From: Hyphomicrobium sp.
GTDB taxonomy: Bacteria; Pseudomonadota; Alphaproteobacteria; Rhizobiales; Hyphomicrobiaceae
Length of the DNA stretch: 32,773 nt
Assembly: GCA_022841965.1 (NCBI GenBank)
Contig: JALHQM010000002.1
Coordinates: 103,594-136,366, forward strand
Direction of reading: 5' to 3'
The notes below the pieces were generated by a model. The model did no database searches. It was not told the DNA's origin and saw nothing but the letters and a program-made list of their open reading frames with translations. The position numbers and the translations under genes are program-made. Below, one piece after another: positions 666-11,333 of the stretch; within the stretch, counting starts at the first letter, position 1; the number at the start of each line of letters is the position of its first letter.

Positions 666-1514
666 CTATTGCTCGCCCTTACGGCGGCTCATGAAGGCGA
701 TGCGTTCGAAGAGGTGGACGTCCTGCTCGTTTTTGAGAAGTGCGCCAGCCAGCGGCGGGATCAGTTTGCGGGTGTCGGTTTCCTTCAGGGTCGCAAAGTC
801 GATGTCTTCGGCGAGGAGAAGCTTCAGCCAGTCGATCAATTCGGACGTGGAGGGCTTCTTCTTCAGGCCGGGGACGTCGCGCATGTCGTAGAAAATGCGC
901 AGAGCTTCCGCGACGAGGCGGCCTTTCAGGTTGGGGAAGTGGACGTCCACGATTTTCTGCATGGTGTCGGGATCGGGGAATTTTATGAAGTGGAAGAAGC
1001 AGCGGCGCAGGAAGGCGTCGGGCAGTTCTTTTTCGTTGTTGGAGGTGATGATGACAATCGGGCGCTGGGCGGCCTTGATGGTCTCGCCGGTCTCGTAGAC
1101 GAAGAACTCCATGCGATCGAGTTCCTGCAAGAGATCGTTGGGAAACTCGATGTCGGCTTTGTCGATTTCGTCGATGAGCAGGATGGGGCGGCGCTCCATG
1201 AGGAACGCCTCCCAGAGTTTGCCCTTCTTAATGTAGTTGCCGATGTCCTTGACGCGTTCATCGCCGAGTTGGCTGTCGCGGAGGCGCGAGACGGCGTCGT
1301 ATTCGTAGAGGCCCTGCTGCGCCTTGGTGGTGGACTTGATGTGCCACTCGATGATGGGTGTTCGAAGCGCGCGGGCGACCTCCAGGGCGAGGACGGTTTT
1401 GCCGGTGCCAGGTTCGCCCTTGATGAGGAGGGGGCGTTCGAGCGTGATGGCGGCGTTGACGGCGACCTTGAGATCGGGGGTCGCGACATAGTTTTTCGTG
1501 CCGTCGAATTTCAT
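666..1514 (-). CDS. MoxR-type AAA+ ATPase
   Basis: From the ATG at 1514 (MKFDGTKNYVATPDLKVAV) the product has 282 residues, the usual length of this MoxR subgroup. An in-frame TTG at 1604 would add 30 Pro-rich residues and is less likely. Walker A GEPGTGKT lies at about 33-40, Walker B ILLIDEID has Asp115-Glu116, and sensor 1 is ITSNN at about 156-160, followed by the conserved ELPDAFLRRC. MoxR ATPases are chaperone-like remodelling enzymes that usually act with von Willebrand A domain proteins to mature metalloenzymes or other complexes. Here the usual VWA partner is not the next gene: a GFA protein and a lysine aminomutase follow. A partner could lie elsewhere or left of the window. Confidence 0.93.
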   Translation of the reverse strand: MKFDGTKNYVATPDLKVAVNAAITLERPLLIKGEPGTGKTVLALEVARALRTPIIEWHIKSTTKAQQGLYEYDAVSRLRDSQLGDERVKDIGNYIKKGKLWEAFLMERRPILLIDEIDKADIEFPNDLLQELDRMEFFVYETGETIKAAQRPIVIITSNNEKELPDAFLRRCFFHFIKFPDPDTMQKIVDVHFPNLKGRLVAEALRIFYDMRDVPGLKKKPSTSELIDWLKLLLAEDIDFATLKETDTRKLIPPLAGALLKNEQDVHLFERIAFMSRRKGEQ

Positions 1515-1624: not shown

Positions 1625-1666
1625 AAAAAGAAAGCGCCGCCCATGGGTGGGGTCCATGGGCGGCGC
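1625..1666 (-). terminator. Strong Rho-independent terminator on the minus strand
   Basis: The arms GCGCCGCCCATGG (1634-1646) and CCATGGGCGGCGC (1654-1666) form a perfect 13-bp stem with a 7-base loop. On the minus strand the stem is followed by TTTCTTTTT. On the plus strand no T-run follows, so it acts on minus-strand transcription. No convincing protein gene lies upstream of it on that strand: the next feature is the divergent dksA. It also separates whatever is transcribed there from the MoxR operon starting at 1514. Confidence 0.85.
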
Positions 1667-1863
1667 AGGCCGGTGGATGTTGCCGGCCGGGTGTTCGGGA
1701 AGGGCCGTGCCGTATTTTGCAAATCCGGGCCAGGATGTGGGGACAATGGGGCCCGGCTTGCGTGGATCGGCGCCGTGTGGGAGCGGTTGGCCTTCCAAGA
1801 GCGATGACGCAACACTCGAGAGACTGGCGTGTGCTCTCTGGTTGTTTTGTCGCTCCTGAACAA
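1625..1863 (-). ncRNA. Candidate small RNA under a CtrA-box promoter
   Basis: A transcript starting about seven bases after the -10 element TACAAT (1875-1870) would run to the terminator at 1625, giving an RNA of roughly 240 nt. The open frames crossing this interval run through the terminator stem, have no well-placed ribosome binding site and resemble no family I know, so a non-coding RNA fits better than a protein. It does not show the conserved parts of SRP RNA that I can recognise, and I could not identify it as 6S RNA, RNase P RNA or tmRNA. The call rests on promoter, CtrA box and terminator together, and is inference. Confidence 0.4.
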
Positions 1864-1869
1864 CCATAG

Positions 1870-1900
1870 ATTGTAATAGATTGGTTAATCGGGCGTTAAC
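1870..1900 (-). promoter_or_regulatory. Consensus CtrA box with adjacent -10 element
   Basis: Read on the minus strand, TTAACGCCCGATTAACC (1899-1883) matches the full alphaproteobacterial CtrA recognition sequence TTAA-N7-TTAAC without mismatch. Eight to nine bases downstream is TACAAT (1875-1870), a good -10. The distal half of the box overlaps where the -35 would lie, the usual layout of CtrA-activated promoters. The box is also roughly palindromic enough to be read on the plus strand, but there it is 225 bases from the dksA start. CckA, the kinase at the top of the CtrA phosphorelay, is encoded in this same window. Confidence 0.55.
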
Positions 1901-2124: not shown

Positions 2125-2874
2125 ATGGGCAAACGCGACGACAAACCAAAAGCTGGCAGAGCGGCACCTGCCGCCGCCCGGGCGAAGAGTTCGGCCTCGG
2201 CGAAGGCGCGTCAGCCCGCGCGGGCTCAGAAAAGCCGGGTGGCTCCTCCCACAGCCGCTTCAAAGACTGCTGCGAAGCCGGCGGCCAAGGCCGTGGCGAA
2301 ACCTGCCGTCAAGGCCGTCGCCAAGGCCGGAGCTGCCAAGCCGTCCGGCAAGGTGGTCGCGCGCGCGCCCGTCGCCGCTGTCGCGGACAAGGTTCGGTCG
2401 GTAACGAAGGCGGCTCAAAAGCAGTCTGACAAGAAGCTCGTTGATCGCGCTAAAGCGTCGGCCATCGTTCTGACGCCGGATTACCGTCCGTCGGAAGACG
2501 AGCCGTTCATGAACGAATATCAGCGGCTTTACTTCCGGCAGAAGCTCCTTACCTGGAGAGAGGACATTGTCCGGCAGACGAAAGAGACGCTGGAGGGGTT
2601 GCACGAGGACAGCGTGCAGCATGCGGACTTGGCCGACCGGGCGACGTCGGAGACCGACCGCGCGCTGGAACTCAGGGCGCGTGACCGGCAGCGCAAGCTT
2701 GTCTCGAAGATCGATGCCGCGTTGGCGCGGATCGAGGATGGAACGTATGGCTATTGCGAAGAGACCGGCGAGCCGATCGGGCTAAAGCGGCTCGATGCGC
2801 GGCCGATCGCGACGTTGTCGCTGGAGGCGCAGGAGCGCCATGAGCGCCGCGAGCGGGTTTACCGCGAGGATTGA
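2125..2874 (+). CDS. dksA: DksA/TraR-family RNA polymerase-binding regulator with degenerate zinc finger and basic Ala/Lys-rich extension
   Basis: The ATG at 2125 is chosen for the GGAG about eight bases upstream and gives 249 residues. Residues 1 to about 112 are a Lys/Ala/Pro-rich low-complexity tract resembling histone H1 tails. Residues 113-249 form a DksA core: a coiled coil carrying the tip motif DxxDxA (Asp168, Asp171, Ala173) that probes the RNA polymerase secondary channel, then GTYGYCEETGEPIGLKRLDAR. Of the four zinc Cys of E. coli DksA only Cys211 remains, the others being Thr, Ser and Ala. Single-Cys, zinc-independent DksA proteins are known in alphaproteobacteria. It should act with ppGpp in the stringent response. 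A weak promoter (TTGACT at 2008) may lie upstream. Confidence 0.88.
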   Translation: MGKRDDKPKAGRAAPAAARAKSSASAKARQPARAQKSRVAPPTAASKTAAKPAAKAVAKPAVKAVAKAGAAKPSGKVVARAPVAAVADKVRSVTKAAQKQSDKKLVDRAKASAIVLTPDYRPSEDEPFMNEYQRLYFRQKLLTWREDIVRQTKETLEGLHEDSVQHADLADRATSETDRALELRARDRQRKLVSKIDAALARIEDGTYGYCEETGEPIGLKRLDARPIATLSLEAQERHERRERVYRED

Positions 2875-6601: not shown

Positions 6602-6938
6602 CGTGCAGCGTCTCCCTGTCGGCCGCAAGGGCGGGCCAATTGTTTGCCGGCCAAGCCGCGGGCTGAGCTTCGGAGTGAAGTCGCGACGCGGAGGCTATTG
6701 AATCTGCGCCCCATTTTCGGATCGTGATTGAGGCATTCGAAAGCCGTCGTACCTGTTTCGGTCTTCTGGTTCCCAAAGTGGGGCGCCGCTAAGGACGACC
6801 TATACCGCGAAGTTCACGGCAATTTAACCCAGATGATCGAAGTGTTGACAGTGTTCCTGCCCTCTCGACCCCGATCTCCACAGGCGGTTGCAGACATGCG
6901 GCGACAACCATTGTGACCTGCGTAACGAGGCCGTTGAT
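6602..6938. other. Divergent intergenic region between the FliO-like gene and cckA
   Basis: This 337-base stretch must hold promoters for both genes. A perfect -35 hexamer TTGACA is at 6845-6850 pointing to cckA, but no recognisable -10 lies at 16-18 bases from it. A TTTAACCC at about 6825 is at most a CtrA half-site. I see no coding frame of substance, RNA gene or repeat. Confidence 0.4.
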
Positions 6939-9536
6939 ATGCCGCCACTTGAGGCCGCCCACACTTCGAATCAGATACCCTTCGACTTCATGAGCGACAG
7001 TGGTGGTGCGGTCTATCGCGGTCCGGTTTCGTCCGGCTCCCCGGTATCCCTCGCGGACGGAGCGATGTCCTATTTGCCTGTGCTTGGTGCGGTCTTCGCG
7101 CTGGGCGTTGTTGCGGTCACTGTTGCCGCGAGCACAGCGGGAACGCCTGTGTTGCTCGCGGTGCTCGCCTCGTTTGCCATTCTCGGGGTGTTCTTCGTGC
7201 TCGGGTGGTTGGCTGGTCATATTCGAATCGGCGACCGGTTGCTCTCCGACGATATCGCGCGCAGCATCAGCGACGGAATTGATCGCGGTTTGATGGTCGC
7301 GCGCCTCGATGGTTCGGTGCTGTTCGTCAATCACAAGCTTGAGGAACTCGTCGGCCGCCTCTCGTCGCGGGAGGTGTCGGCCCTGGATATGGCTTTCGGT
7401 CCCGATCTCGCGGTGCGGGAGGCGTTCTTCCGACTTAACCGGGCGGCGGATCGCGGCGACCGGCATGGCGAGGATTTCCGGCTGGCTGCGGGTGGCGCGC
7501 TGCCGCAGCGCATTTTGCGCATCGATGTGGCGCCGCTCGATCTGGGGCGCGGCCGGGAGACGGGCCGCACGGTTTTGTGGTCGGTGCAGGATGTGACCGA
7601 AGACCGGATGCGGACGGCGGCGGCCCGGCAAAGCTTGGTCGATACGCTGGGGTTCTATGACGCTTCTCCGGTCGGCTTGCTGACTGTCGACCAGGGCGGC
7701 ACGGTGCGCCACATCAACGGAACGCTGGCGCGCTGGCTTGGTTATCCCAACCAACCGCTGGTGAGCCGCGTCGTGCGGCTGTCCGATATTCTGAGCATCG
7801 AAACCGTTGCTCTGATCGAAGGCGCGCGGCAGGCGGGCGCTGAAGACATGATTTCGCTCGACATCGATGCGACGCGGGAAGACGGCCGGCTGCTGCCGGT
7901 GCGTCTCGTGGCGCGGACGCATCGCGATGGGCACCGGCTGATTGCCTTCATCAACAGAGAAGCTGATCACGGTCTGGGCTTTGATGCCCCGGCGAGCGAT
8001 GTTCGCTTCGCACGCTTCTTTCAGTCGGCTCCGTTCGGTATTGCCAGCGTCTCGGCCGACGGCCGGGTGACAAGTTCCAATGGCGCGTTTGCGCGGCTGA
8101 TGCTCGACGGCACCGGTGGCATCGGCAAGCGGGCCGTGGATGTTCTGGCGACCGTTGACGACAAGGCCGGGCGGATTGAGATCGAGGATCAGTTGCGCCG
8201 CGTTCTTGCGGGCAAGGCCGCGGGGCAGCCGCTGGAGACGACGTTGTCGCCGACCCATGTTCGGCGGGTTTACATGAGCCCGATGGTGGAGCAGGCGACT
8301 GACCGCGAGGCGGCCATGCTCTATGTGGTCGATGCGACAGAGCAGAAGGCGCTTGAGGTTCAGTTTGCGCAGTCGTCAAAGATGGAGGCGGTGGGCAAAC
8401 TCGCCGGTGGCATCGCGCACGACTTCAACAATGTGTTGACCGCGATCATCGGCTATTCCGATCTGCTTTTGCAAACGCATGCGATTTCTGATCCCGCGTA
8501 CATGGACATCAAGAATATCCAAGGTAGCGCCTATCGGGCGGCGGGAATGGTGCGGCAACTGTTGTCGTTCTCGCGCCGGCAGACGTTGCAGGCGGAATCG
8601 CTTCTGCTCGACGAGGTGATCAGCGAGAACACGTCCATGCTGCGGACGTCGCTGGGCGAAAAGATCACGCTCAAAGTACAACCGAGCCGCGATCTTTGGT
8701 ACGTTAAGGTCGACAAGGGTGAGTTCTCGCGCGTTATCGTCAATCTGACCGTGAACGCGGGCGATGCGATGCCTGTCGGCGGTGTGCTTTCGATCAAGAC
8801 CCGGAACATCACAGAACGCGAAAGCCAGAAACTCGGGCGCGAGGGGATGCCGGTCGGGGAATATGTGGGTGTCGAAGTGTCCGATACTGGCACGGGAATG
8901 CCGGCAGAGGTTCTCGAGAAAATTTTCGAGCCGTTCTTCACGACCAAGGCGATTGGTAAGGGGACGGGCCTGGGGTTGTCGACGGTTTATGGCATCGTGA
9001 AGCAGTCGGGCGGGTTTATTTACTGCGATAGCGTGATCGGTCGCGGGACATCGTTCCATATCTATTTGCCGCGCTATATCCCGGAACTGGAAGACGAGGA
9101 CGCCATTGTCGCGCTGGCTCCGGCAGTTCCGGCCAAGGAACCCGTGGCATCGAAGGCGTTGGATCTCACCGGCACCGGGCGCGTGCTGCTTGTGGAAGAC
9201 GAGGATGTCGTGCGGTCGTTCGCGGTGCGGGCATTGACGCGGCAGGGTTACGAGGTTCTGGAAGCCTCCGACGGGCAGGAAGCCCTCGATATCGTGGCGG
9301 CACACAACGGGGAGATCGATATCGTCGTGACCGACGTCGTGATGCCCGAGATGGACGGGCCAACGATGTTCCGCGAACTGCGCAAGACCAACCCGTCGAT
9401 CAAGGTCATCTTCGTCTCGGGCTATCCGAATGAAGCCTTCCGCGAAACGCTGGGCAGCGAAGAAGTGGCGTTCCTGCCGAAGCCGTTCTCGCTGCCGCAG
9501 CTGGCTGAGAAGGTGAAACAGGAATTGGCGCGCTAA
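6939..9536 (+). CDS. cckA: Cell-cycle hybrid histidine kinase CckA
   Basis: CckA feeds phosphate through ChpT to CtrA and CpdR, controlling replication and division in alphaproteobacteria. The ATG at 6939 has GAGG eight bases upstream and gives 865 residues; an in-frame TTG at 6888 is less likely. Two membrane helices (about 45-65 and 70-92) are followed by PAS-like regions (about 110-460). A HisKA domain has the phosphorylated His494 in GGIAHDFNN. The ATPase domain has the N box around Asn606, the DTGTGMP box with Asp649 and the [13 protein letters not shown] box. A C-terminal receiver has phospho-acceptor Asp799 in [10 protein letters not shown]. The receiver and membrane helices separate it from simple PAS kinases. 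The gene ends at a bidirectional terminator. Confidence 0.95.
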
Positions 9537-10131: not shown

Positions 10132-10175
10132 TAGGTAAATTGTAGCTCTGCAACTTTAAACCTAAGGTGCGCCCG

Positions 10176-11333
10176 ATGACGACCAAGCCCGACTTTAAAG
10201 TGATCGAAGGGGGATCGGCCAAAATGGATAAGAAGCAGGCGCTCGAAGCGGCCCTGGCACAAATCGACAAGAATTTCGGCAAGGGCTCAATCATGCGATT
10301 GGGCACCAACGACAAGTCGATCGATGTGGAGGCGATCTCAACGGGATCGATTGGGCTTGATATTGCGCTGGGTATTGGCGGTTTGCCGAAGGGGCGCGTC
10401 GTTGAAATCTACGGGCCGGAATCGTCGGGCAAGACAACGCTGACGCTGCATGTGATTGCGGAGGCGCAGAAGAAGGGCGGCACGTGCGCGTTTATCGACG
10501 CTGAACATGCGCTCGATCCGGTTTATGCCCGCAAGCTTGGCGTTAATGTTCAAGACCTGTTGATCTCGCAGCCTGATACGGGCGAGCAGGCTTTGGAAAT
10601 CGCCGATACGCTGGTGCGCTCTGGGGCGGTCGACGTGCTGGTGATCGACTCGGTGGCGGCGTTGACGCCGAAGGCCGAACTTGAGGGCGAGATGGGCGAC
10701 AGCCTGCCTGGCCTGCAGGCGCGGCTGATGAGTCAGGCGCTGCGCAAGTTGACGGCCTCGATCTCGAAGTCGGGCTGCATGGTCGTCTTTATCAATCAGA
10801 TCCGCATGAAGATCGGCGTCATGTTCGGCAATCCGGAGACGACGACGGGCGGCAATGCGCTGAAGTTTTACGCATCTGTGCGTCTTGACATTCGCCGCAT
10901 CGGGCAGATCAAGGATAAGGACGAGCCGGTCGGCAACCAGACGCGCGTCAAGGTGGTGAAGAACAAGGTGGCGCCGCCGTTCAAACAGGTTGAATTCGAC
11001 ATCATGTACGGCGAGGGGATCTCCAAGGTGGGCGAACTCGTTGATCTCGGCGTCAAGGCCAACATCATCGAAAAGTCTGGCGCTTGGATGTCGTACAACG
11101 GCGAGCGCATCGGGCAGGGGCGTGAGAATACCAAGGAGTTCCTGCGCACCAATCCGAAGGTGGCCAACGCCATCGAGGCTGCGGTGCGAGCCAATGCGGG
11201 GCTGATCGTGGATAAGATGCTGGTGGCACCCGAGGCCGGGGAGGCCGATGAGGAGACCCCGGACGAGGACGGCGTGCTGCCGGATGTCGATGATGCGCCC
11301 AAGAAGGGCGCTCGGGCCAAGCGCTCGGGCTGA
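10176..11333 (+). CDS. recA: Recombinase RecA
   Basis: RecA forms filaments on single-stranded DNA, drives homologous pairing and triggers LexA self-cleavage. The ATG at 10176 has AAGG eight bases upstream; the GTG nine bases earlier is less well placed. The product has 385 residues. Walker A GPESSGKT is at 80-87, and the family signatures [20 protein letters not shown] and [16 protein letters not shown] are intact. The C-terminal tail is acidic ([10 protein letters not shown]-like) and then ends in [10 protein letters not shown], as is common in the family. A terminator follows 28 bases after the stop, so the gene is monocistronic. Confidence 0.99.

Follow-up and report, generated by a model that had tools for sequence, protein, structure and literature searches.

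The stretch between the genes of a MoxR-type ATPase and DksA in Hyphomicrobium sp. probably encodes a small RNA of about 235-240 nt (1625-1865, minus strand). The reading that we favour is that of a CtrA-activated, separately terminated and trans-acting RNA whose C-rich loops would mask ribosome-binding sites, a CcnA-like mode of action for which no homology is claimed. A CtrA-controlled small RNA had been proposed at this place in a first-pass annotation, and the sequence-level tests described here mostly favour it.

The window, i.e. the whole stretch of 32,773 nucleotides that was analysed, is part of contig C2 of a 3.05-Mb draft genome that is 88.8% complete. This genome (G000) and five others (G001-G005) make up the genus set. 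The gene for the MoxR-type AAA ATPase (666-1514, minus strand, 282 aa) starts at 1514 and the divergent dksA (2125-2874, plus strand) at 2125, with 610 bases between them; moxR is the downstream neighbour of the candidate gene, and its start is found about 110 nt past the end of the candidate RNA. DksA scores above the cut-off of TIGR02420, while the top NCBIfam match of the MoxR-type protein is a MadB-type ATPase at 111.6 bits, under the cut-off of 475. The window also holds a cckA-type gene, recA (10167-11333) and alaS. The candidate gene is supported by its fold, by comparison within the genus and by DNA matches in G002 and G003. The box, the promoter layout, the terminator, the fold, the absence of a reading frame, the conservation within the genus and the position in some other genera are all read from the sequence alone, and by these the candidate appears to have a promoter of its own, a Rho-independent terminator and no reading frame. 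Rfam 15 gave no match at the gathering threshold in the window or in 18 related loci, in agreement with the earlier statement that no known RNA could be matched; at E <= 10 nothing credible was found, the top rhizobial match being BjrC68 with 14.2 bits against a threshold of 39. No small RNA at dksA-moxR is reported in the titles and abstract openings of the papers that searches of the open-licence PMC literature listed, preprints excluded.

The CtrA box TTAA-N7-TTAAC is found at 1884-1899 on the minus strand and is free of mismatches, as had been noted. Being palindromic, it is also exact on the plus strand (1885-1900). Two exact matches to the box occur in the window against 0.02 expected, and one of 100 shuffles reached two. 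The sole sigma-70-like match within 1000-2800, where 0.2 were expected, is TTAACG-N18-TACAAT at 1899-1870. The TACAAT earlier taken as the -10 element is thus present at 1870-1875, but it is not conserved in the congeners, where the same columns read CGCAAT (G002 and G003), TGCAAT (G001) and TACAAT (G004). The conserved promoter word is instead CAATCTANRGTTGTTC (1873-1858), with an exact match in five of the six genus genomes. Since TACAAT varies while CAATCTANRGTTGTTC is conserved, the -10 element is placed at AATCTA (1867-1872, minus strand) inside this word, and transcription is predicted to start within 1858-1865, a zone that follows the geometry given in PMC4287350. In the account of the Caulobacter ctrA promoters given there, P2 is activated from a full CtrA box with its 5' nucleotide at -39, while the CtrA sites at -14 of P1 and P3 repress (PMC4287350). 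A box at -39 would set the start at 1860, with a gap of 6 nt after AATCTA, and the CtrA assignment would fit the published activating geometry if transcription does start there. A possible 5' hairpin, GGTTGTT...AACAACC (1840-1865, minus strand, by eye), needs a start at or before 1865 and would form if transcription began at 1865 instead of 1860. Its ends vary together in the congeners (GGTTG/CAACC, AGTTG/CAACT and AGTTGT/ACAACT, by eye), and it competes with the minimum-energy fold of G000.

CtrA is encoded in G000 (NF045991, 422.6 bits against a cut-off of 350), and so is GcrA. The window had been said to contain cckA, and a CckA-type kinase gene is indeed found at 6888-9536, its best match being NF046020 with 835.9 bits, under the cut-off of 1000. 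A CtrA-like box with one mismatch, TTCACGGCAATTTAAC (6813-6828), is located about 60 nt before this frame, which lies upstream of recA, and could be a feedback site. Another CtrA-like palindrome with one mismatch, TTAACCTCGGCTCAAC, is found just past dksA (2904-2919).

The predicted RNA ends in an intrinsic terminator, a stem-loop of 13 bp with 11 G-C pairs (1634-1666, minus strand) and a U-rich tail (1625-1633); the stem at 1666-1634, as described from the start, is followed by TTTCTTTTT. The scan gave three terminator-like sites where 1.7 were expected, a number without significance by itself; they have 13, 6 and 5 pairs, and the stem at 1666-1634 is the longest. The stretch 1863-1625 folds with -108.7 kcal/mol, compared to -75.1 +/- 4.7 kcal/mol for shuffled sequences (z -7.2), and none of 200 shuffles was as good. 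The fold is less pronounced in two congeners (z -4.0 in G001 and a weak -2.0 in G004), and G004 combines its weak fold with a poor U tail and a box with two mismatches. Double changes that preserve pairing are found at four terminator pairs across five genomes, and at seven of the 73 predicted pairs in the consensus fold of the three close species. A conserved fold ending at the terminator had been named as a sign in favour of an RNA; the double changes in the terminator speak for it, but the RNAalifold covariation terms (-0.1 for three sequences and +1.08 for five) give no overall support.

The same interval contains overlapping open frames of 89 and 101 aa, and for about 243 nt no stop interrupts any of the three minus frames of G000, which might point to a small protein encoded at 1625-1865. 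C-rich DNA yields open frames cheaply. The substitutions relative to G000 are spread over the three codon positions (13/10/14 and 16/15/18; 9/15/7 between G002 and G003), and no codon periodicity was found against G000. Single-base insertions or deletions occur at four internal places, and the frames of G002 and G003 contain stops. A small protein is therefore very improbable. The conserved coding frame across relatives that would have spoken against an RNA was looked for and not found, and the view that no convincing protein gene lies here holds.

Within the genus, a DNA search with the candidate RNA matches G002 (82% identity) and G003 (81%), while the moxR-upstream regions of G004 and G001 share the promoter word and likewise contain a stretch that ends in a hairpin. 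The promoter and a hairpin-ended RNA are thus kept in five of the six genomes. In G005 dksA is closer to moxR; the RNA is absent from the moxR-upstream region, and neither the promoter word nor the full layout is found in the genome. The boxes, which stand at the same place, read TTAACGCCCGATTAAC (G000), TTAACGTGAGATTAAC (G002), TTAACAAAATCTTAAC (G003), TTAACTGCAGGTTGAC (G001) and TTAAGGAAATATTATT (G004). Those of G002 and G003 are exact and that of G001 has one mismatch; the N7 spacer differs in all five, while the half-sites are intact or almost so. In all five RNA-bearing genomes CAATCTANRGTTGTTC follows 26 nt after the start of the box. The RNA stretches of G000 are 0.74-0.81 identical to those of G002 and G003, compared to 0.51-0.67 upstream of the box and before moxR; between G002 and G003 the values are 0.86-0.87 for the RNA and 0.70-0.80 for the flanks. 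A block of 38 nt (1759-1796, minus strand) is identical in G000, G002 and G003. Conservation of the RNA body in G004 and G001 (0.33-0.45) does not exceed that of the flanks and mostly falls below it, and only the box plus promoter stands out (0.65-0.68). A covariance search of related genomes had been suggested. Such a model of a 133-position core, run against 103 family genomes and filtered in a way that misses weak matches, found G000, G002, G003 and G004 and not G001; since the model was built from those same four genomes, it gives no information on other genera.

Of the 103 family genomes, 89 contain a MoxR match (E <= 1e-100). The regions upstream of moxR were read in 70 of these, and that of G079 was added as locus L186. 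A divergent dksA lies within the stretch in 54 of the 70 regions, a number that misses more distant copies as the stretches are about 1.2 kb. As an independent pattern, TTAA-N7-TTAA-N11-CAATCTA was taken from this genus alone and compared to 200 shuffles of each region (p <= 0.02). Seven of the 64 regions outside the genus, belonging to five genera, are positive, compared to one of 64 for the reverse strand. A G+C-rich stem of at least 13 bp is found 60-330 nt before moxR in all seven, but in only nine of the 57 others (Fisher 1.8e-5, for genomes that are not phylogenetically independent). With a looser promoter score 16 of the 70 regions, in nine genera, are positive and 54 negative, and when L186 is added the stem is found in 17 of 17 regions with the promoter and in five of 54 without it (Fisher 2.5e-12). 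This association is partly circular, because the weights were written after reading several of the loci then scored, some of which had been chosen for their stems. The line was likewise drawn after inspection (G029, p 0.030, was kept in and G117, p 0.035, left out), and a stem with one internal mismatch was accepted in L129, while the longest stem was used in L121, downstream of the U-tailed one. The genus-only pattern, under which G018, G029, G020 and G122 leave the positives, is the test to trust. In a set of 80 named loci that includes some from family members, L047, itself from a family member, is the only one to reach p <= 0.02 with the looser score.

By eye, the stems are of the GCGCC/GGCGC kind in 13 of the 17 loci. 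The 17 stretches before the terminators contain C-rich and G-rich motifs in a ratio of 97:12, compared to 105:60 in the 54 regions lacking the promoter. The z values of the fold range from -0.9 to -7.9 with the terminator included; when it is left out, five of the 17 are above -1. Since the core model finds only its own four genus genomes, the evidence for putative relatives of the RNA outside the genus is one of position and architecture without alignable sequence.

That promoter and stem go together in other genera also argues against the view that a CtrA-like palindrome and a terminator have come to lie by chance in spacer DNA devoid of function, as does the conservation of the box halves, the promoter word, the fold and the terminator over diverged species. 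The absence of the RNA in G005 and the restriction of the core model to four genomes would agree with such an origin, which we regard as quite improbable. Somewhat more weight, though still little, is given to the possibility that the transcript is a CtrA-driven 5' leader of the moxR operon that starts near 1860, acts in cis and uses the hairpin as an attenuator or partial stop. The candidate lies on the same strand as moxR and about 110 nt before its start, and all 17 promoter-positive loci have the stem before moxR, with a poor tail in about six (G004, G001, G018, G017, G011 and G079, by eye). However, about 11 of the 17 loci have a clear run of U after the stem, and a separate block, GTGGCGTTC... 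then CCGTACGGT-like letters, lies between the terminator and moxR and looks by eye like a promoter of moxR itself. The GTGGCGTTC block can be recognised also in G005, which has no RNA.

The full layout (box, CAATCTA and GTTGT with at most three mismatches) is found 17 times in the 103 family genomes, compared to two in the backward control. Nine of these matches are upstream of moxR and, by eye, seven of the other eight are placed before open frames, with starts roughly 80-170 nt past the box where they can be placed. These frames include adhesin-like repeat proteins (L187, L198 and L200) and membrane proteins (L196 and L202); the eighth match, L197, precedes a tRNA. Such positions are what would be expected of a generic CtrA-activated promoter. 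In an order-wide scan seven of 397 genomes match the layout; three are known loci, and of the other four L203, L204 and L206 were inspected, none being taken as a homologue. In G077 (L155), between genes that read by eye as topA and dprA, the promoter word CAATCTAAGGTTGTTC is followed by CGCTCCCTCC and TTGTCCACATCCGGGC; these sequences recall the RNA core and might represent a relocated copy lacking the CtrA box. The promoter word was rejected as a mark specific for the RNA, given this occurrence without a box and the full layout before coding genes elsewhere, and is read as the CtrA promoter of the family.

The RNA could be real but repressed by CtrA, or the box could serve dksA on the other strand. 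In favour of this are the exact match on both strands and the repression of Caulobacter ctrA P1 and P3 from CtrA sites at -14 as given in PMC4287350. We consider it unlikely, and a little less so than a chance assembly, since the distance from the box to the -10 word is a constant 26 nt in the genus and also in G022, G096 and G097, as in the layout before coding genes, and since the reverse strand was positive in so few of the regions scanned above.

The part of the RNA that varies least is a proposed C-rich seed, CCG-CUCCCACA-CGG (1773-1786, minus strand), which is complementary to ribosome-binding sites of the GGGAG type. All 14 nt are identical in G000, G002, G003 and G004, and CUCCCAC is kept in G001. 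The seed forms a hairpin in the three-genome consensus and is mostly paired otherwise in the minimum-energy fold of G004. Among possible targets, the start of gcrA is preceded by GGGAG or GGGGG in five genomes; in G000 GGGAG is missing close to the start of ctrA. Duplex energies of RNA segments with the leaders of both genes were computed without a control and are left out of account. The pattern TGTGGGAG-N3-11-ATG gave 54 matches in five genus genomes against 20 in the backward control, an excess that is attributed mostly to the composition of ribosome-binding sites. Thirty of the 54 matches were made into loci and 27 of these read, L217 being identical in position to L212. Orthologous sites turned up repeatedly in three cases, one of them at the start of a gene for a TPR lipoprotein that we call TadD-like, its Pfam and NCBIfam matches being to general TPR families and none above the cut-off. 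The other two, L209/L227 and L219/L236, seem by eye to be codons within longer genes. In G000, G002 and G003 the leader of the TadD-like gene contains GTGTGGGAGC, which is complementary to the loop over 10 nt; in G001, G004 and G005 it has GGGAGC only, although G004 has the same loop and G005 no RNA. This gene is a weak lead, as a rough hand estimate puts the chance expectation at about one gene of this sort, and the loop complements could be due to chance in a genome with G-rich ribosome-binding sites. The TadD-like gene (G000:C8:69635, L237; also L238, L247, L253 and L256) is preceded by TTAA-N7-TTGA or variants of it, e.g. TTAAACCTTTATTGA, seen by eye in G000, G003, G110, G022 and G020, and is possibly CtrA-regulated in itself. 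A match to the RNA core in G014, a genome of another genus (43 nt, 86%; L004 1501-1541), by eye at the start of lipA, was set aside as probably due to chance, since it has the same sense as the RNA and the own genome gave no second match.

Taken as a CtrA-activated small RNA, the locus could work as follows. Phosphorylated CtrA would bind the box at 1884-1899 and activate the promoter with the -10 element AATCTA. RNA polymerase would then start near 1860, and its stop at the 1666-1634 hairpin would yield a folded transcript of about 235 nt that is independent of moxR and presents CUCCCACA in a small hairpin. In trans, CUCCCACA and other C-rich stretches would pair with purine-rich ribosome-binding sites of mRNAs, and a pulse of CtrA activity would thereby lower the translation of chosen cell-cycle or surface genes, or raise it by freeing the site. 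Transcription, activation by CtrA, action in trans, the masking of ribosome-binding sites and the targets are what we infer here; action on translation starts is proposed by analogy, because CcnA uses a CCCC loop on GGGG sites.

We put forward more tentatively, and would rate as somewhat short of an even chance, that the Hyphomicrobiaceae have here an undescribed, CtrA-driven small RNA whose age would account for its presence in several genera and whose place between dksA and moxR is fixed. Its body would evolve fast, only the promoter, the terminator and the C-rich stretches directed against ribosome-binding sites being kept; it would form a post-transcriptional arm timed by CtrA, similar to CcnA but placed independently, and possibly control surface-attachment genes such as that of the TadD-like lipoprotein. 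CtrA is the master regulator of the cell cycle in alphaproteobacteria; few small RNAs have been linked to it directly, and CcnA is the best described one that was found. If the reading is true, there would be a second CtrA-tied small RNA, with a fixed position in a different family, and this would point to control of translation as a common part of what CtrA does. The locus provides exact coordinates, a promoter, a seed and a set of genera to look in, and is a new lead on RNA joining cell-cycle control in this bacterial family.

The first-pass annotation had referred to small RNAs of a CctA type; a Caulobacter RNA of such a type was found, but under the name CcnA. In C. crescentus CcnA is described as an RNA of 182 nt with a CtrA box in its promoter and a CCCC loop whose pairing partner is GGGG at the 5' end of both ctrA and gcrA, on the basis of pull-down, probing and mutant data (PMC8959179). 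The candidate RNA, likened to it by description, shares the CtrA box and the C-rich loop and is longer (about 235 nt). While the ccnA locus is found in the replication origin, the candidate lies between dksA and moxR. EcpR1 of Sinorhizobium meliloti is likewise a rhizobial trans-acting small RNA with a strongly conserved loop and a link to the cell cycle (dnaA and gcrA); unlike the candidate, it is stress-induced and encoded near divK, and no CtrA box is described in the account consulted (PMC4414408). The Caulobacter SisA-D RNAs (alphaR8) resemble the candidate in having a Rho-independent terminator and a single-stranded C-rich seed, UUUCCUCCCU in their case, that pairs upstream of the start codon (PMC12559287). 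They differ in that the seed is another one and the promoters of the four copies are unrelated, and the word CtrA does not occur in the main text of that paper (PMC12559287). Six non-coding RNAs are named among the promoters discussed under CtrA motifs in PMC4287350. CtrA-linked small RNAs are thus a kind already known, and what distinguishes the present candidate is its fixed locus and the fast turnover of its sequence.
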